Assembly (NCBI GenBank): GCA_002356455.1
Contig: AP017968.1
Span: 930,001 to 994,000 of the forward strand
Length of the DNA: 64,000 nucleotides
Direction of reading: 5' to 3'
From: Fusobacterium varium
GTDB taxonomy: Bacteria > Fusobacteriota > Fusobacteriia > Fusobacteriales > Fusobacteriaceae
Below, piece by piece: positions 38,926 to 51,326 of this stretch. Numbering within the stretch: position 1 is the stretch's first letter; each line of letters begins with the position of its first letter. The notes under the pieces are model-generated. The model was not told the origin of the DNA. It did not search any database and was given only the letters and a program-made list of their open reading frames with translations. The position numbers and the translations under genes are program-made.

Positions 38926-39064
38926 ATAGACAAAAAAAGAAACTAGAAAATATGGGAGGTATAGAAATAATAAAATAGAATCAAAAGAAAAAATAGAAAA
39001 TAAAGGGAAATAGACAAAAACCAGTAGAGAAAGCATTGAAAAATAAGGACAGGAAACCTAATGG
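38926..39064 (+). other. CRISPR leader 1
   Basis: An AT-rich, purine-dominated stretch directly before array 1. Its last 75 bp (ending AAAACCAGTAGAGAAAGCA, TTGAAAAATAAGGA) match leader 2 (42996-43140) closely, which marks it as a functional leader and sets the array orientation left to right. Confidence 0.75.
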
Positions 39065-39226
39065 GACTAAATCCATATAAGTGGAATTTAAACTTATTTC
39101 TTTTAATGTGCAAATTGGACATTCTATTTTTGGACTAAATCCATGTAATTGGAATTTAAACTTACTTTTATTTCAATATCAGTCCATCTATATTTCAGAC
39201 TAAATTCATGTAAGTGGATTTAAAAT
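39065..39226 (+). CRISPR. CRISPR array 1 (3 repeats, 2 spacers), type VI-C
   Basis: 29-bp repeats at 39065-39093, 39133-39161 and a degenerate terminal one at about 39198-39226. The repeat opens GACTAAATCC and closes GGAATTTAAAC. Within it AAATCC pairs with GGAATTT (one bulged A) around an 8-nt loop, leaving a 3' AAAC, as expected for a Cas13 5' handle. Spacers are 39 and 36 bp (39094-39132, 39162-39197). All copies carry one or more changes from the array-2 consensus. The end of the array is about 30 bp from the cas13c ATG. Confidence 0.92.
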
Positions 39227-39255
39227 ATTTAAATTAATATAAAGTGAGGAATTTT

Positions 39256-42200
39256 ATGGAAAATAAAAATAAACCCAATAGAGGCTCGATAGTTAGAATT
39301 ATAATTTCTAATTATGACATGAAAGGAATAAAAGAGCTTAAAGTTCGTTATAGAAAACAAGCACAACTGGATACTTTTATTCTACAGACTACTCTTGATA
39401 AAAGTAATAACTCTATTTTAATCAATGATTTTAGAGTTAAAGCCAGAGAAAAATATAGATATAGCTTTACATATGATGGAAAAGAGAAATTCTCTGTTCC
39501 ATCTAACAGCATTATTGTAACTAAAATAGATAATGCAGCTCCAGAAAAATCTAAAGAAATAAGAAAATATAAGATAACTTTAGGAATAGATGAAAAATGT
39601 AAAACTGGAAGTATGATTACAGCTGCCATAGAAGACTTATTAGAAGATGACAGAGTGAGAGAAGGAATAAGAAATCCTAGAAGAAAAGCATCAAAAACTG
39701 AAAGAAAACTCATAACAGAATCTATCTGCCATAACTATGCTCAAATAACTCAGTGTCCAGTTGAAGAAATAGACGCTGTAAAAATCTATAAAGTAAAGAG
39801 ATTTTTGAGCTATCGTTCTAATATGTTACTATTTTTTGCTTTGATAAATGATTTTTTATGTAAAAACTTAAAAAATGAAAAAGGTGAAAAAATAAATGAA
39901 ATATGGGAAATGGAAAATAAAGGAAATAATAAAAAGATAGACTTTGATGAGAACTACAATATATTAGTTGCACAAATTAAAGAGTATTTTACTAAAGAGA
40001 TTGAAAATTATAATAATAGAATAGATAATATTATTGATAAGAAGGAATTGTTAAAATATTCTGAAGAAAAAGAAGAAAGTGAAAAAAATAAAAAATTAGA
40101 AGAATTGAATAAATTAGAGTCTCAAAAATTAAAGATTTTAACTGATGAAGAGATAAAAGCAGATGTCATAAAAATAATAAAGATATTTTCTGATTTAAGA
40201 CATTCATTAATGCACTATGAATATAAATATTTTGAAAATTTATTTGAAAACAAAAAAAATGAAGAATTAGCTGAATTGTTAAATTTGAACCTATTTAAAA
40301 ATCTTACTCTGCTAAGACAGATGAAAATTGAAAATAAGACTAATTATTTAGAAGGGGATGAAAAATTTAACATCCTAGGAAAAGATGTAAGGGCTAAAAA
40401 TGCACTTGGACATTATGACCTTTTAGTTGAACAAAAGAATGGTTTTAATAATTTTATAAACAGCTTTTTTGTTCAAGATGGAACAGAAAATCTTGAGTTT
40501 AAAAAATTTATTGATGAGAACTTTATAAAAGCTCAAAAAGAATTAGAAGAAGATATAAAAAACTGTAAAGAATCAGTAAAAAAGTTAGAAAAAAAATTAA
40601 AAGAAAATCCAAAAAAATCTGAAGACTTGGAAAAAAAATTAGAAAAAAAACAAAAAAAATTGAAAGAATTAAAAAAAGAATTAGAAAAAATGAAGCAGCA
40701 CTACAAAAGATTAAACTGTGCTTATGTATGGGATATTCATAGTTCAACTGTATATAAGAAACTATATAATGAAAGAAAAAATTTGATAGAAAAATATAAT
40801 AAGCAACTAAATGGGCTACAAGATAAAAATGCTATAACTGGTATTAATGCACAACTTTTAAGAATAAAAAAAGAGATGGAGGAAATTACCAAAAGTAATT
40901 CTTTGTTTAGACTGAAATATAAAATGCAGATAGCATATGCTTTTTTAGAAATGGAATATGAGGGAAATATTGCTAAATTTAAAAATGAATTTGATTGTTC
41001 TAAAACAGAGAAAATTCAAGAATGGTTAGAAAAAAGTGAGGAATATTTAAATTATTGCATGGAAAAAGAAGAGGATGGAAAAAATTATAAATTTCACTTT
41101 AAAGAAATATCTGAAATTAAAGACACACATAATGAGGAATGGTTGGAAAATACTTCAGAAAACAATTTATTTAAATTCTATATTTTAACTTATTTACTGC
41201 TACCTATGGAATTTAAAGGAGACTTTTTAGGAGTTGTGAAGAAACATTATTATGATATAAAGAATGTAGATTTTACAGATGAAAGCGAAAAAGAATTGTC
41301 TCAGGAACAGATAGATAAAATGATTGGAGATAGTTTTTTCCATAAAATTCGTTTATTTGAAAAAAATACAAAAAGATATGAAATAATAAAATATTCTATT
41401 TTAACCTCAGATGAAATAAAGAAATATTTTGAATTATTAGAATTAAAAGTACCTTATCTTGAATATAAGGGTATTGATGAAATAGGAATATTTAATAAAA
41501 ATATAATTCTTCCAATTTTTAAATACTACCAGATTATTTTCAGATTGTACAATGATTTAGAAATACATGGACTATTTAATGTATCATTTGATATAAATAA
41601 AATATTGAGTGATTTAAAAAGCTATGGCAATGAAAATATTAATTTCCGAGAATTTCTTTATGTAATAAAGCAAAATAATAATTCAAGTACTGAAGAAGAG
41701 TATCAGAAAATTTGGGAAAAGTTAGAGTCAAAATATTTAAAAGAGCCTCTGTTGACTCCAGAGAAAAAAGAAATTAATAAAAAAACAGAAAAAGAATTGA
41801 AAAAATTAGATGGGATAAGTTTTCTTAGAAATAAAATTTCTCATTTAGAGTATGAGAAAATAATAGAAGGAGTTCTAAAAACAGCAGTTAATGGAGAAAA
41901 TAAAAAAACTTCTGAAACCAATGCTGATAAAGTATTCCTAAATGAAAAAATCAAGAAAATAATAAATTTTATTAAAGAAAATGAATTAGATAAAATTGAG
42001 CTGGGCTTTAATTTTATCAATGATTTTTTCATGAAAAAAGAGCAATTTATGTTTGGACAAATAAAGCAAGTAAAAGAAGGAAATTCAGATAGTATAACGA
42101 CTGAAAGAAAAAGAAAAGAGGAGAATAATAAAAGACTTAAAATAACCTATGGATTAAACTATAATAATTTAAGTAAGATTTATGAATTTTCAAATACTTT

Positions 42201-42732
42201 AAGAGAAATAGTAAATTCTCCTTTATTTTTAAAAGACAGCACTCTTCTAAAAAAAGTTGATTTATCTAAAGTAATGCTGAAGGAAAAACCAATATGTAGT
42301 TTGCAGTATGAAAATAATACTAAATTAGAAGATGATATAAAAAGAATATTACTTAAAGACAGTTCAGATATTATGGGAATTTATAAAGCAGAAGTAGTAA
42401 AGAAATTAAAGGAAAAGCTGGTTTTGATATTTAAATACGATGAAGAAAAAAAAATATATGTAACAGTATATGACACTTCAAAAGCAGTTCCTGAAAATAT
42501 ATCAAAGGAAATATTAGTAAAAAGAAATAACTCAAAGGAAGAATATTTTTTTGAGGATAATAAGAAAAAATATACTACTCAATATTATACTTTAGAAATA
42601 ACTAAAGAAAATGAATTGAAAGTAATTCCAGCAAAAAAACTAGAAGGAAAAGAATTTAAAACTGAGAAAAAAGAAGAAAATAAACTTATGTTAAATAATC
42701 ATTATTGTTTTAATGTAAAAATTATCTATTAA
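39256..42732 (+). CDS. cas13c: Cas13c, type VI-C CRISPR RNA-guided RNase
   Basis: A single-protein effector of 1158 residues from ATG 39256 (GAGGA upstream; GTG 39244 is less likely). Two HEPN RxxxxH nuclease motifs: RHSLMH at 315-320 and RNKISH at 858-863, both in typical contexts (DLRHSLMHYEY; FLRNKISHLEYEK). Two HEPN motifs, this length and this spacing, a flanking 29-bp repeat array and a Fusobacterium-like background together support Cas13c. A Lys/Glu-rich coiled coil spans about 425-487. On target RNA recognition the family cleaves RNA including in trans; many Cas13 proteins also process their pre-crRNA. No cas1, cas2 or known accessory gene is nearby. Arrays lie on both sides. Confidence 0.92.
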   Translation: MENKNKPNRGSIVRIIISNYDMKGIKELKVRYRKQAQLDTFILQTTLDKSNNSILINDFRVKAREKYRYSFTYDGKEKFSVPSNSIIVTKIDNAAPEKSKEIRKYKITLGIDEKCKTGSMITAAIEDLLEDDRVREGIRNPRRKASKTERKLITESICHNYAQITQCPVEEIDAVKIYKVKRFLSYRSNMLLFFALINDFLCKNLKNEKGEKINEIWEMENKGNNKKIDFDENYNILVAQIKEYFTKEIENYNNRIDNIIDKKELLKYSEEKEESEKNKKLEELNKLESQKLKILTDEEIKADVIKIIKIFSDLRHSLMHYEYKYFENLFENKKNEELAELLNLNLFKNLTLLRQMKIENKTNYLEGDEKFNILGKDVRAKNALGHYDLLVEQKNGFNNFINSFFVQDGTENLEFKKFIDENFIKAQKELEEDIKNCKESVKKLEKKLKENPKKSEDLEKKLEKKQKKLKELKKELEKMKQHYKRLNCAYVWDIHSSTVYKKLYNERKNLIEKYNKQLNGLQDKNAITGINAQLLRIKKEMEEITKSNSLFRLKYKMQIAYAFLEMEYEGNIAKFKNEFDCSKTEKIQEWLEKSEEYLNYCMEKEEDGKNYKFHFKEISEIKDTHNEEWLENTSENNLFKFYILTYLLLPMEFKGDFLGVVKKHYYDIKNVDFTDESEKELSQEQIDKMIGDSFFHKIRLFEKNTKRYEIIKYSILTSDEIKKYFELLELKVPYLEYKGIDEIGIFNKNIILPIFKYYQIIFRLYNDLEIHGLFNVSFDINKILSDLKSYGNENINFREFLYVIKQNNNSSTEEEYQKIWEKLESKYLKEPLLTPEKKEINKKTEKELKKLDGISFLRNKISHLEYEKIIEGVLKTAVNGENKKTSETNADKVFLNEKIKKIINFIKENELDKIELGFNFINDFFMKKEQFMFGQIKQVKEGNSDSITTERKRKEENNKRLKITYGLNYNNLSKIYEFSNTLREIVNSPLFLKDSTLLKKVDLSKVMLKEKPICSLQYENNTKLEDDIKRILLKDSSDIMGIYKAEVVKKLKEKLVLIFKYDEEKKIYVTVYDTSKAVPENISKEILVKRNNSKEEYFFEDNKKKYTTQYYTLEITKENELKVIPAKKLEGKEFKTEKKEENKLMLNNHYCFNVKIIY

Positions 42733-42995: not shown

Positions 42996-43140
42996 GGGGA
43001 TAGACAAAGGAGAAATAATAGAATAAGAGGTATAAAAAGAAGAAGAGGAAAAATAATTTAAAGAAAAAATAGAAAATAAAGAGAGATCGATAAAAACCAG
43101 TAGAGAAAGCATTGAAAAATAAGGATGAAAAACTTAACTA
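42996..43140 (+). other. CRISPR leader 2
   Basis: Shares with leader 1 an almost identical end (AAAGAAAAAATAGAAAATAA, AAAAACCAGTAGAGAAAGCA, TTGAAAAATAAGGA) and a weaker match near GATAGACAAA. It directly abuts array 2. No strong -35/-10 pair was found in it. Confidence 0.75.
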
Positions 43141-43433
43141 GACTAAATCCATGTAAGTGGAATTTAAACATTTAAATCAAGTTCATAATATTGTGAATCA
43201 TCTTTAGACTAAATCCATGTAAGTGGAATTTAAACTCTTCTAAGAATTCTTCCATCTGGTTTCTCCAAGATGACTAAATCCATGTAAGTGGAATTTAAAC
43301 GTTTCAGAATTTAATTCTAAATTAGCTCTTTCTAAAGTGACTAAATCCATGTAAGTGAAATTTAAACTTTTCTACTTCGAGAACTCTCGAAATAATTATA
43401 AAAAGACTAAATCCACATAAAAAAAATATTTTA
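43141..43433 (+). CRISPR. CRISPR array 2 (5 repeats, 4 spacers), type VI-C
   Basis: 29-bp repeats at 43141, 43207, 43272 (these three identical), 43339 (one change) and a truncated terminal repeat from 43405. Spacers of 37, 36, 38 and 37 bp (43170-43206, 43236-43271, 43301-43338, 43368-43404). Degeneration at the right end and the leader on the left give left-to-right transcription, as for cas13c. The fourth spacer contains a perfect small palindrome, TTCGAGA-AC-TCTCGAA. Confidence 0.97.
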
Positions 43434-46359: not shown

Positions 46360-46605
46360 ATGAAAAGTAATACAGAACTGTTTTTCAAGATAATAACTAC
46401 AACAGGAACTTTTTTATTGGCATATCACAAGTACATACTTTCACTGTTTGACAAAAAACTGGACAAGAGAGATTGTGAAAAAGAAAGACTGTATGCAGAG
46501 AAATTCAGAATAGAAAATATAAAGACACTAACTGATGGAATAAAAAGAATAGAAGAGAGAATGACAGGAATAGAAAAAGAATTGATGAAACAATACAAGA
46601 ATTAA
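46360..46605 (+). CDS. Small membrane-anchored coiled-coil protein
   Basis: An 81-residue protein: N-terminal hydrophobic segment (FFKIITTTGTFLLAYHKYIL, about 8-27), then a charged coiled coil (KERLYAEKFRIENIKTLTDG; IEERMTGIEKELMKQY). The layout recalls phage holin-accessory (haemolysin XhlA-like) proteins with the order of parts reversed. GAGGGAGAG precedes the ATG. Function unproven. Confidence 0.6.
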   Translation: MKSNTELFFKIITTTGTFLLAYHKYILSLFDKKLDKRDCEKERLYAEKFRIENIKTLTDGIKRIEERMTGIEKELMKQYKN

Positions 46606-46675
46606 TACACTAAGTAAAATACTCTTTAATACTATAAAAATAATAAAAGTTCTCTTTAATGTATAAAGGCGAACT

Positions 46676-46705
46676 TTTACATGTTTTAACTTTATCAATT
46701 ATAAT
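46676..46705 (+). promoter_or_regulatory. Plus-strand promoter inside the inverted-repeat segment
   Basis: TTTACA (46676-46681), 18 bp, TATAAT (46700-46705), pointing to the autotransporter gene. Confidence 0.55.
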
Positions 46706-46726
46706 CTCTAAAATTGATAAAGTCAA
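46698..46726 (-). promoter_or_regulatory. Minus-strand promoter inside the inverted-repeat segment
   Basis: On the minus strand: TTGACT (46726-46721), 17 bp, TATAAT (46703-46698), closer to consensus than the plus-strand one. In the present orientation it points away from the adhesin; inversion of the segment would aim it at the adhesin. It shares its -10 region with the plus-strand promoter. Confidence 0.6.
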
Positions 46727-46912
46727 GATAAAAATATTTTTAGAGAAAACATCCTTAAAAAATGCCCCCCTGTAAATAAAGTAATTACGACTATTTTATG
46801 TTCGCTTTTATACATATAAGAGAACAATTATTAATTTTGCTGAATTTGAGATTATTATAAATATAAAAAAGTTGAATTTAAAGTAAAAAATATCAAAGGG
46901 GGAGAGGAAAAT

Positions 46913-49900
46913 ATGATTAAAGAAATGGAGAAAGCTTTAAAAAGATATCTCAAGGGAAAGAATAGAATAACAATGGGAGTGGTAGTAGCTTTTTTACTGG
47001 GAAGCAGTTTTGCATTTGGAGATGTTACAGTAAAATATGAAGATTCAACTATTAAAATACTAGATAATTCAGGAACTATTACAGAAATTGGAACAGTAAC
47101 AAAAAATTCTGATGATGAATTTACCTGGACATTACCAGAAGGAGCAAATATAACTGAAACTGTAAAAATAGATGATACAGTAAATACAAATAATATTAAA
47201 GTAAATATAGTGAATAGTGGAACTATAAGCAGTTCTGGAAATGGAAATTATATAGGAAATGGAATTAGTTCTTATTCTAATTCAGATAGTAATACAATAG
47301 GAGATATAACAAATAGTGGAAGTATAAGAGGAAACAGTACTGGTGGAGGTAAATCAGGAAATGGAATATTTTCTGATTCTGATACTTTAAATAGTATAAT
47401 AGGAAATATAACAAATAGCGGAAGTATAAGTGGAAACAGTACTGTTGAAGCTCATTCAGGAAATGGAATATATTCTTATTCTGATACTTCAAATAGTATA
47501 ATAGGAAATATAAAAAATAATGGAAATATCAATGGCAGTACTACTGGCAGTGGAAATAAATCAGGAAATGGAATATATTCTTATTCTGATTCAGCTAGTA
47601 CAATAGGGGATATAACAAATAGTGGAAGTATAAGAGGAAACAGTACTGGCGGAGATAGTTCAGGAAATGGAATATATTCTTATTCTGATTCAGATGGTAG
47701 TACAATAGGAGATATAACAAATAGTGGAAGTATAAGAGGAAACAGTACTGGCGGAGATAAATCAGGAAATGGAATATATTCTTATTCTGAGACTGGAGCT
47801 AGTACAATAGAAGATATAACAAATAGAGGAAGTATAAGTGGAAACAGTACTGGTGGAAATGATTCAGGAAATGGAATATATTCTTATTCTAAACCAAGTA
47901 GTACAATAGGAAATATAACAAATAGTGGAACTATAAGTGGTAGTACTACTGGTAATGGAGATAAATCAGGAAATGGAATTTTTTCTTATTCTAAGACTGG
48001 AGCTAGTACAATAGGAGATATAATAAATAGTGGAACTATAAGTGGCAGTACTACTGGTATTGGAAATTATTCAGGAAATGGAATTTATTCTACTAGTAGT
48101 GAGAGTATAATAGGCAATATAATAAATTATGGAATAATTAGTGGAAAAAGTACTAGTGGAAGTGAATCAGAAAATGGAATTTATTCTTATTCTTTTAGAG
48201 ATGATTCTATTTCAAAGAGTAAAATAGGCAACATAACGAATTATGGAACAATTAGTGGAAATGGTAGAAACGTTTATAGTGGAAATGGAATTTATTCTTC
48301 TTCTAGTACTAATCTTTCTTCTACAAGTAGTAAAATAGGAAAGATAACGAATTATGGAATTATTAGTGGCAGTACTACTGGTAGTGGAAATTATTCAGGA
48401 AATGGAGTTTTTTCTTCTTCTTCTTCTGGTTCATCAATAATAGAATCAATTTCAAATACTGGTGTTATAATGGGAAGCAACAATGGAATATATATTAAAG
48501 GAGATTCTAGTTCAAAGATTGATAAATATAGCAATTATGGACTTGTAATAGGACAGACACCAGTCAAAATTGAAGGTGGCGGAACAGTAAACACTCTAAA
48601 AGAACAGGGAATGGCTATAACTCTTGATGGAAGTGGAGATATCACTTCTATTGCTTCAGGAACTGGAGGAAGTACAGGAATATATTCTATAGTGAATACT
48701 CAATTAAGAGATAATTCAGGAAGCGCAGTATCATCTGGTGCAGTAGATTCATATGATGTATATACAAGCGACCAAAGTATTTCAGATACTATCATCAATG
48801 GTGCTGGTGTAAATAGTGGAACAGTGACAATAGAAGCAGATAAGAATTTCTCACTTAATGGTGGAGTTGTCAATGCCTATAAAACTGCTGTTACAGTTAA
48901 AGATGGAGCTTCATTTACTGGTACAGATGTAACAATTAATGGTGGGGGCTTAGATGGAAATACTGTTGTTATTTCTGGAAGTGCAGGAGCTAATACAGTA
49001 AATATATCTGGAAATTCTTTTATCAATGGAAAAGTTGATTTAGGAGATGGAGATGATATTTTATTTATTGGAAATTCCACTCAAATCAATGGAGATATAG
49101 ACGGTGGAACAGGTAATGGGGATATTCTTAATTTTGGTTCAGCCGTTTCCAGAGCAGTGGGAAATGATAATATAAATCTTTTCCATAAAATATCAAATAT
49201 GGAAAACATAAATATAAATCAGAAAGTAACTGCATTTGAAACTTCCGAAATTACAGGAGCAAAAGATATTAATATTGGTAAAAATGGGGAGTTTGTATTA
49301 AGAATAGATACAAGCAAAGTGGACAACACAAGTGGGACAGATAAAATTACAGGTCATGCACTTTATGGGAATATAGGAACAATATCTTCAACAGGAGGAA
49401 AATTATTACTTGCTCTTAATGGAGTAGGGAATGAAAGTATAATAAGTTTTGGAAATACTCAATTGGATAGCAGTTTGGTGACAGGAGATGAAGGAAAATA
49501 TCAGGAAGATATAACTTTAGATACAACATCACTGCTTCACTCAGTAGGAAAAATAGATTTATCAAACAATGAAATAAAAATTACAGCTAAATCTAATCTT
49601 CCTACAAAACCAATTAATCCAGATAATATAACATATGAAAAATTAAATAAAATATATCATGGTATTCTTTCGGTAGATAAATTAGAAAACTTTAATGTAG
49701 ATACTGATGAAAAACTCTCATCATTTATGGGATACTTAAATGACATCTATGCAGGAAATCCATACTCATATTCTTCTGAATTATCAAGAAAATCAATGGG
49801 AATGTTCAGAGATATAGTTACTGAAAATTTATTTAAAGCAGATACAGGAAAATGGATGATATATGGCGGACTTACTCATATAGATGGAGGAACTAAAGAT

Positions 49901-50746
49901 ACATATTATGGAAAAGGATACTATACTTATGATATAGGAAGTTCTGATATAGATGCAGATACAAAAATCACAGGAGCATATATGCTTGGAGAATATGGTG
50001 TATCTGACACACTGACTTCTGGAGTGATAATCGGAGGAAATAAATTGAAATCTGATTTGTCTAATGGATCAAAAGTAGATGGAAGTGCAATGTATCTTGG
50101 AGCTTATGCGAAAAAATATATTGGAAATTTAAAAGTAACAGCAGGATTAGGATTCCAATATGGAGATTATGATGCAGACAGAACAGCAGCAGGAAGAGAA
50201 ATTACAGAAACAAGAAGTTATTCTTCAAGCTACAGTGATTTGACTTATGATATTTATCTAAATGGAAGATATTCACATAATATTAGAGAGAACTTATTCC
50301 TAGAACCTTATGGAACTTTATCATACACATATGTAGATCAAGATGGAGCAGATGAGGGAAATAAAACTTTAGCAATAGAAACAGATTCAAAATCATTTGA
50401 TTATACATCAGCCAAAGTGGGATTAGATCTTAAAAAAGTGATACCACATGAAAAAGGAAAGAGCACATTATCAGTTGGGGCAAGCTATACAAGACTGCTT
50501 AATGGCGCAGATGAAGAATATATCACAGGAAGATTTAAAGGTGGAAGCAACTTTGATATATTAGTTGCCCACAAGAATGAGCACAGCTTAGGATTGAATG
50601 CTAAATATACACTTGAACTGGAAAATGGAATCTTATTTGATGTAAAAGGAACTTACTCTGTAGAAAGAGATTCACATAATCAATCTGGAAAGAATAAGAC
50701 TAAAGGTGAATGGATAGTAGGAACAGGACTGGGTTATAAGTTCTAG
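46913..50746 (+). CDS. Type V autotransporter adhesin with about 12 internal repeats
   Basis: Large surface protein, 1277 residues. The extended signal peptide (KALKRYLKGKNRITMGVVVA, then a hydrophobic core ending FAFG) is the type seen on Fusobacterium autotransporters. Residues about 95-540 carry some 12-13 imperfect repeats of 32-37 residues (pattern IGDITNSGSIRGNSTGG, SGNGIYSYS), then a beta-helix-like passenger with NG/DG-rich turns (about 560-900) and a C-terminal beta-barrel (about 1000-1277) ending GLGYKF, the expected terminal aromatic. Likely an adhesin. GGGGGAGAGG precedes the ATG. Confidence 0.92.
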   Translation: MIKEMEKALKRYLKGKNRITMGVVVAFLLGSSFAFGDVTVKYEDSTIKILDNSGTITEIGTVTKNSDDEFTWTLPEGANITETVKIDDTVNTNNIKVNIVNSGTISSSGNGNYIGNGISSYSNSDSNTIGDITNSGSIRGNSTGGGKSGNGIFSDSDTLNSIIGNITNSGSISGNSTVEAHSGNGIYSYSDTSNSIIGNIKNNGNINGSTTGSGNKSGNGIYSYSDSASTIGDITNSGSIRGNSTGGDSSGNGIYSYSDSDGSTIGDITNSGSIRGNSTGGDKSGNGIYSYSETGASTIEDITNRGSISGNSTGGNDSGNGIYSYSKPSSTIGNITNSGTISGSTTGNGDKSGNGIFSYSKTGASTIGDIINSGTISGSTTGIGNYSGNGIYSTSSESIIGNIINYGIISGKSTSGSESENGIYSYSFRDDSISKSKIGNITNYGTISGNGRNVYSGNGIYSSSSTNLSSTSSKIGKITNYGIISGSTTGSGNYSGNGVFSSSSSGSSIIESISNTGVIMGSNNGIYIKGDSSSKIDKYSNYGLVIGQTPVKIEGGGTVNTLKEQGMAITLDGSGDITSIASGTGGSTGIYSIVNTQLRDNSGSAVSSGAVDSYDVYTSDQSISDTIINGAGVNSGTVTIEADKNFSLNGGVVNAYKTAVTVKDGASFTGTDVTINGGGLDGNTVVISGSAGANTVNISGNSFINGKVDLGDGDDILFIGNSTQINGDIDGGTGNGDILNFGSAVSRAVGNDNINLFHKISNMENININQKVTAFETSEITGAKDINIGKNGEFVLRIDTSKVDNTSGTDKITGHALYGNIGTISSTGGKLLLALNGVGNESIISFGNTQLDSSLVTGDEGKYQEDITLDTTSLLHSVGKIDLSNNEIKITAKSNLPTKPINPDNITYEKLNKIYHGILSVDKLENFNVDTDEKLSSFMGYLNDIYAGNPYSYSSELSRKSMGMFRDIVTENLFKADTGKWMIYGGLTHIDGGTKDTYYGKGYYTYDIGSSDIDADTKITGAYMLGEYGVSDTLTSGVIIGGNKLKSDLSNGSKVDGSAMYLGAYAKKYIGNLKVTAGLGFQYGDYDADRTAAGREITETRSYSSSYSDLTYDIYLNGRYSHNIRENLFLEPYGTLSYTYVDQDGADEGNKTLAIETDSKSFDYTSAKVGLDLKKVIPHEKGKSTLSVGASYTRLLNGADEEYITGRFKGGSNFDILVAHKNEHSLGLNAKYTLELENGILFDVKGTYSVERDSHNQSGKNKTKGEWIVGTGLGYKF
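47200..48520 (+). repeat. Tandem coding repeats of about 100 bp in the adhesin
   Basis: Twelve or so units with near-identical blocks such as ATAACAAATAGTGGAAGTAT and TCAGGAAATGGAATATATTC. Units in 47280-47840 are the most alike at DNA level, later ones more diverged. Unit lengths are multiples of three, so copy-number change would keep the frame. Confidence 0.9.
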
Positions 50747-50767: not shown

Positions 50768-51061
50768 ATGACAGAAGGGGAATTTATAAGATTCTATAAA
50801 AAGAGAAATGGACTAAAGAATCAGCAGGAAGTAAAAGAAAAGATAGACTTATTCTGGAATACACTGCTAAAAGTTCTGGATAAAGGGGAAAAGGTAACCT
50901 TTAAAAATTGGGGAACATTTGAAGAAAAAGAGGTAAAACCAAGAAAAATAATGATAACTAAAATAAATAAATCTGGTTATACAAAATCTAAAAAGAAGAT
51001 AAGATTCAGAGCAGGAGCGGGCTTGCAGGATATAGTAAATGGAGCTGGTACTGATGAATAA
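50768..51061 (+). CDS. HU/IHF-family DNA-binding protein 1
   Basis: A 97-residue histone-like protein: N-terminal helical pair (GEFIRFYKKRNGLKNQQEVKEKIDLFWNTL) and the beta arm region (GEKVTFKNWGTFEEKEVKPRK), ending with KIRFRAGAGLQDIVNGA like the HU C-terminus (KxPxFxxGxxLKxxVN). It starts 21 bp after the adhesin stop with GGGGGAAG upstream and overlaps the next HU gene by 23 bp. May be co-expressed with the adhesin. Confidence 0.88.
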   Translation: MTEGEFIRFYKKRNGLKNQQEVKEKIDLFWNTLLKVLDKGEKVTFKNWGTFEEKEVKPRKIMITKINKSGYTKSKKKIRFRAGAGLQDIVNGAGTDE

Positions 51062-51326
51062 GAGAGAATTAGCAAAAGTATACAGTGAAACAAGTAAAGG
51101 GGAAATATCAGCAAGAAAAGCACTGAAAGAAATAGAAGTATTTCTTGAAACAATGCAGGAGGCTTTGCAGAAAAGTCATTCATTGATATTTAGAAATATA
51201 GGAATATTTGAAGTGAAGGAAAGAAAACCAAGAATAATAGCCAATCCAGTAACTAAAGAACCTATGAAGATTTATCCAAAAAAAACAGTGAAATTCAGAG
51301 AATCTAAAAATATTCAGGATAAATAG
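51039..51326 (+). CDS. HU/IHF-family DNA-binding protein 2
   Basis: A 95-residue HU-like protein. The ORF opens at ATG 51039, but ATG 51054 (MNKRELAKVYSETSKGEISARKA) matches the HU start better. The body shows SLIFRNIGIFEVKERKPRIIANPVTKEP, the DNA-arm motif (GTFxxRxRxAxxGxNPxT), and ends KTVKFRESKNIQD. It overlaps the first HU gene and could heterodimerise with it. Confidence 0.88.
   Translation: MELVLMNKRELAKVYSETSKGEISARKALKEIEVFLETMQEALQKSHSLIFRNIGIFEVKERKPRIIANPVTKEPMKIYPKKTVKFRESKNIQDK

Follow-up and report, generated by a model that had tools for sequence, protein, structure and literature searches.

The 177-bp cassette at 46649-46825 of the window, the 64,000-nucleotide stretch of AP017968 from the Fusobacterium varium Fv113-g1 genome analysed here, is very probably an invertible promoter of the autotransporter gene that follows it. 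This phase-variable reading, put forward in the initial annotation, is supported by a genome-wide family of paired sites, by the identity of the central bases within each pair and by opposite orientations of the segment between homologous loci. The cassette has the organization of an inverton, in that a short intergenic segment before a gene is bounded by inverted repeats and contains a conserved outward promoter. The features of the locus are as follows.

46360-46605, plus strand: small upstream gene, function not assigned; its 3' end belongs to the repeated module
46649-46674, plus strand: left putative recombination site, GTTCTCTTTAATGTATAAAGGCGAAC; two half-elements of ~10 bp, GTTCTCTTTA and GTTCGCCTTT (inverted), around the overlap
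46659-46665, plus strand: left copy of the overlap, ATGTATA (positions 11-17 of the arm); the right arm has the same seven bases
46675-46799, no strand: putative invertible segment of 125 bp, conserved across 12 cassettes of Fv113-g1
46676-46705, plus strand: promoter-like TTTACA-18-TATAAT directed towards the gene (TTTACA 46676-46681, TATAAT 46700-46705)
46698-46703, minus strand: -10 box TATAAT, partner of the TTGACT -35 box with a 17-bp spacer
46721-46726, minus strand: TTGACT, the -35 box of the conserved promoter, which in this orientation reads away from the autotransporter
46800-46825, minus strand: right putative recombination site, forward letters GTTCGCTTTTATACATATAAGAGAAC, minus-strand reading GTTCTCTTATATGTATAAAAGCGAAC
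46809-46815, minus strand: right overlap region ATGTATA; core identity holds across 23 pairs
46913-50746, plus strand: autotransporter of 1277 aa with a PF03797 beta-barrel, the gene that would be switched; ribosome-binding sequence AAAGGGGGAGAGG just upstream
50768-51061, plus strand: HU/IHF-like protein (PF00216); included in the repeated module on its downstream side
51039-51326, plus strand: second HU/IHF-like protein (PF00216), after the first HU/IHF-like gene

The arms, whose starts are 151 bp apart, enclose 125 bp and match in inverted orientation at 23 of 26 positions, the mismatches falling at arm positions 9, 10 and 20. Both these repeats and the near-palindromic character of each arm had been described in the initial annotation and are borne out. 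The pair is the single case in the 64-kb window of inverted repeats matching at 23 or more of 26 positions with a start spacing of 100-300 bp. Simulated windows (80 first-order Markov sequences with the window's own dinucleotide composition) contained a mean of 0.025 such repeats, and only one of the 80 had any.

The cassette is a member of a large family. When the whole Fv113-g1 genome was searched with the arm pattern, allowing up to two mismatches, 85 strand-matches were obtained, compared with one for a reversed-pattern control. These further copies, for which the initial annotation had suggested a search, form 23 inverted pairs, mostly 141-156 bp apart; as only the surroundings of pattern matches were read, 23 is a lower bound for the family in this strain. 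Twelve of the 23 pairs sit 87-221 bp before autotransporters with a nearly identical signal peptide (MIKEMEKALKRYLKGKNRITMG). All 12 of these sister genes have the cassette, which is part of a repeated module that includes a conserved upstream flank. The remaining pairs precede HU-like genes, additional large genes resembling autotransporters, or genes of other kinds. Sites are present in four of 98 Fusobacteriota genomes, namely Fv113-g1 (G000) and three related genomes (G008, G009 and G010).

Comparison of the paired arms revealed a signature expected of site-specific recombination. When each left arm was set against its reverse-complemented partner, arm positions 11-17 displayed no mismatch in any of the 23 pairs. 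All but one (six of seven) of these positions differ from pair to pair, and at each variable position random pairing would give 2.0-10.7 mismatches. Positions 9, 10 and 20, just outside the core, mismatch at the frequency expected of random pairing. None of 100,000 permutations matched all the cores, the best reaching 15. Across the four site-bearing genomes, 61 of 65 pairs share a seven-of-seven core match in the inverted register. The clearest exception, G010 C1:1564473/1564624 (L161 8674/8825), with cores ATACATA and ATCTATA, has the appearance of a hybrid between two loci and would be expected to be locked, without inversion. Tyrosine recombinases require identity across an overlap of 6-8 bp, and act at near-palindromic sites of the loxP/FRT type. 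The arms at 46649 and 46800, inverted half-elements around a matched overlap, have the make-up that a site pair for such an enzyme would have, while a conserved overlap of ~7 bp does not fit an Mpi-type serine invertase, for which the overlap is 2 bp. Some GTTC arms pair with another type of half-site (GGGCGC.../AGCCGCC...), 152-153 bp off, again with a seven-of-seven core match (G000 C1:134290, 3713498 and 3940472; G009 C1:3109672; G009 L136); this half-site is possibly a second binding specificity.

A tyrosine recombinase, the other component sought after the initial annotation, was found to co-occur with the sites. The candidate is a 198-aa protein encoded by two genes in Fv113-g1 (C1:3156432 and C1:3237238). 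When 98 Fusobacteriota genomes were compared, matches of at least 80% identity came from the four with sites and from no others; as the four form one clade, this co-occurrence is effectively a single evolutionary event. Each of the other tyrosine recombinases in these genomes is either missing from at least one of the four or present in Fusobacterium genomes that lack sites, as judged from lengths and match scores rather than from a tree. The candidate has the size and the R-K-HxxR-H-Y catalytic domain of the FimB/FimE type; the residues of this motif line up with their FimB/FimE counterparts and are intact in the four genomes. The protein does not fall within the FimB subfamily, as it is 17-19% identical to FimE/FimB and reaches no NCBIfam equivalog cut-off. 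No convincing inverted repeats were found around the candidate gene, and none that were clear beside the majority of distant relatives. The link to the sites is correlative, and with somewhat better than even confidence it points to the 198-aa recombinase, the likeliest candidate, as the invertase, acting in trans.

It is also conceivable, at rather less than even probability, that the switch is real and is driven by a different enzyme, for instance a housekeeping recombinase of the Xer type or a paralogue, either the one at C1:1631168 or one on a plasmid. Only the identity of the enzyme is at issue here, and an invertible promoter would stand in either case. This alternative draws support from the several related recombinases in the Fv113-g1 genome and from the proposed 198-aa gene having no flanking arm site. 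The paralogue at C1:1631168, however, lies inside its own repeats, which differ in sequence from the arms, and one of the four genomes with sites has no intact copy of it; the plasmid paralogues were not detected in the three relatives that share the sites, and Xer-type genes are present in site-less genomes as well. Recombinase specificity cannot be read from similarity in this group, since the C1:1631168 paralogue is 76% identical to the 198-aa candidate yet uses a different repeat.

The C1:1631168 gene belongs to a second type of invertible element, in which separate inverted repeats of 26-27 bp (TAATAAAAATATCTTATATTAACCATT type) enclose the gene of a 198-aa tyrosine recombinase. The element occurs at G000 C1:1631168 (L070), G008 C1:3280800 (L131) and G009 C1:1678061 (L172), and adjoins a FadA-type adhesin and lipoprotein operon. 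Its segment of ~805 bp is inverted in G009 with respect to both G000 and G008, with colinear flanks, which makes DNA inversion by recombinases of this kind probable in the clade. The plasmid pFv113-g1-1 encodes two further small tyrosine recombinases (G000 C2:60359 and 62620), one of which adjoins an autotransporter gene; no clear flanking repeats were evident beside either.

The 125-bp segment contains two outward promoters with a shared -10 region, one on each strand, in agreement with the initial annotation. The plus- and minus-strand -10 boxes overlap at 46698-46705 because ATTATAAT is self-complementary. These calls are consensus matches, and conservation distinguishes the two promoters. 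TTGA(C/T)-17-TA(T/C)AAT is common to the aligned segments of the four genomes. The stronger promoter, TTGACT-17-TATAAT, which points away from the autotransporter, is the conserved one. The proposal that TTTACA-18-TATAAT serves the gene fared less well: this sequence is confined to the F. varium (Fv113-g1) copies, is absent from the segments compared in related genomes and was rejected as a working promoter for this lack of conservation; it is probably incidental. As the conserved promoter is the TTGACT one and not the gene-ward TTTACA, the present orientation at the window locus is read as OFF. A terminator upstream of the promoter was also considered as a fixed part of the module and was discarded, its occurrence in 11 of 47 segments against 2.6 expected being too weak.

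Comparison of assembled loci revealed opposite orientations of the segment between homologous loci in the related genomes. In G008, the segments at L122 and L123, which lie before homologous autotransporters, have colinear flanks and are 88% identical when one is inverted, compared with 63% in direct alignment; the L122 segment is likewise inverted relative to G010 L158, again with colinear flanks. Similarly, the segment at G009 L135 is inverted relative to L141 and L151, both with colinear flanks. The G009 pair L143 and L171 was left out, as its flanks are near-identical but its segments align both ways. By contrast, all 12 segments of the window's own family are in the same orientation. With respect to autotransporter-size genes in the four genomes, the promoter points away in 36 of 42 cases and towards the gene in one, with five ambiguous; for HU-like genes eight point away, four towards and two are ambiguous. 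The ratio of 36 to one, together with the uniform sister cassettes, means either a strong bias to OFF or rare switching.

This skew, and the existence of at least one naturally mismatched pair (the G010 C1:1564473/1564624 exception), could be taken to indicate that the cassettes are former invertible promoters now locked, or nearly locked, in the OFF state and kept to silence their genes. Such a history is unlikely. The overlaps stay identical in nearly all pairs although the cores diverge from locus to locus, which calls for ongoing recombination or for selection to preserve the identity; the candidate recombinase retains its catalytic residues in all four genomes, and orientation does differ at some homologous loci. 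The remaining alternative, raised in the initial annotation, that the arms are operators through which a dimeric regulator loops or represses the promoter with no inversion, is very improbable and was not borne out: the near-palindromic arms and the uniform orientation of the 12 sister cassettes are compatible with it, but a tyrosine recombinase needs near-palindromic sites equally, operators offer no reason for 7-bp centres that are identical locus by locus in the inverted register next to bases that differ (the feature that favours tyrosine recombination, and one that no permutation reproduced), and none for opposite orientations between homologous loci.

If the cassette is an invertible promoter, its operation can be outlined. 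A tyrosine recombinase would bind the paired half-elements of each 26-bp arm, and strand cutting and exchange across the ~7-bp overlap ATGTATA would invert the 125 bp between the arms. In the assembled orientation TTGACT-17-TATAAT would fire away from the autotransporter, the OFF state. After inversion the -10 box would lie near 46771-46776 and the transcript would start ~130 nt before the ATG at 46913, where a strong ribosome-binding site precedes the start codon, giving the ON state. The invertase would be the 198-aa recombinase supplied in trans from C1:3156432 and C1:3237238. The window switch would be one of at least 23 in Fv113-g1, such that a cell could display different subsets of surface proteins. 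The sequences themselves show the repeats and their number, the identity of the overlaps, the conservation of the promoter and the opposite orientations at homologous loci; that inversion takes place in Fv113-g1 today, which state is ON and which OFF, and which recombinase is responsible are inferred.

Invertible promoters for surface proteins, autotransporters included, are already well established. In the fimS switch of Escherichia coli type 1 pili, as here, a promoter is carried on a short invertible segment, and FimB and FimE (200 and 198 aa) resemble the 198-aa candidate in length and share its catalytic residues. Identity to these enzymes is only ~18% (~19% to FimB), and fimS is a single locus with adjacent recombinases and no shared site sequence, in contrast to the more than 20 dispersed loci described here. 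In uropathogenic E. coli CFT073 the invertible promoter ipuS, bounded by inverted repeats, drives the autotransporter gene upaE and is a target of tyrosine recombinases, some of which work on several switches (PMC6083910). That system differs in its 260-bp element, 7-bp repeats, adjoining recombinase genes, single autotransporter and enterobacterial host (PMC6083910). The network logic is that of Bacteroides fragilis Mpi, a master recombinase reported to invert at least 13 dispersed surface-molecule regions; Mpi, however, is a serine recombinase whose targets include seven polysaccharide loci (PMC5903667), whereas the overlap in Fv113-g1 is long, locus-variable and of the tyrosine type. Clostridioides difficile RecV is a tyrosine recombinase that acts on several dispersed switches, mostly far from its own gene, although its seven sites have mostly unrelated repeats (PMC5903667), while in Fv113-g1 the 23 or more pairs all belong to a single family of repeats. 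Akkermansia, too, has an inverton close to autotransporter genes (PMC11892184).

What is notable here is the number of loci, the phylum and the locus-specific overlaps. Fv113-g1 was isolated from an ulcerative colitis patient, and 44 autotransporters are annotated in its genome; their redundancy and variable expression are remarked on in the genome paper, which did not mention inversion and does not contain the words invert, recombinase, integrase or promoter (PMC5720691). The literature searched, which included few subscription journals, yielded no report of promoter inversion in Fusobacterium. There is perhaps an even chance that phase variation in F. varium and its close relatives is organized as a network across the genome: a single small recombinase would serve more than 20 promoter cassettes in trans, mostly those of autotransporters and HU-like proteins, and the differences in the 7-bp overlap from locus to locus would work as an address code, making inversion at one locus more likely than exchange with another. 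Such a network would be the first described in Fusobacteriota, as far as the searched literature shows. If at least a quarter of the 44 autotransporters lie behind switches, single cells would have different surface coats, bulk expression data would average mixed states, and evasion of antibodies or phages would become a testable idea.

Two further observations were made in the course of the analysis. Divergent HU/IHF-like gene pairs recur beside autotransporters, at 50768-51326 in the window and near many other switches, and HU/IHF-like genes are themselves located behind some switches; the proteins could be accessory bending factors, or simply cargo. Upstream of the cassette, at 39244-42732, the window encodes Cas13c, the type VI-C CRISPR effector (NCBIfam NF038193, 1061 bits), and this gene is flanked at 39057-39231 and 43133-43372 by short direct repeats of CRISPR-like character (GACTAAATCCATGTAAGTGGAATTTAAAC, spaced 65-68 bp).
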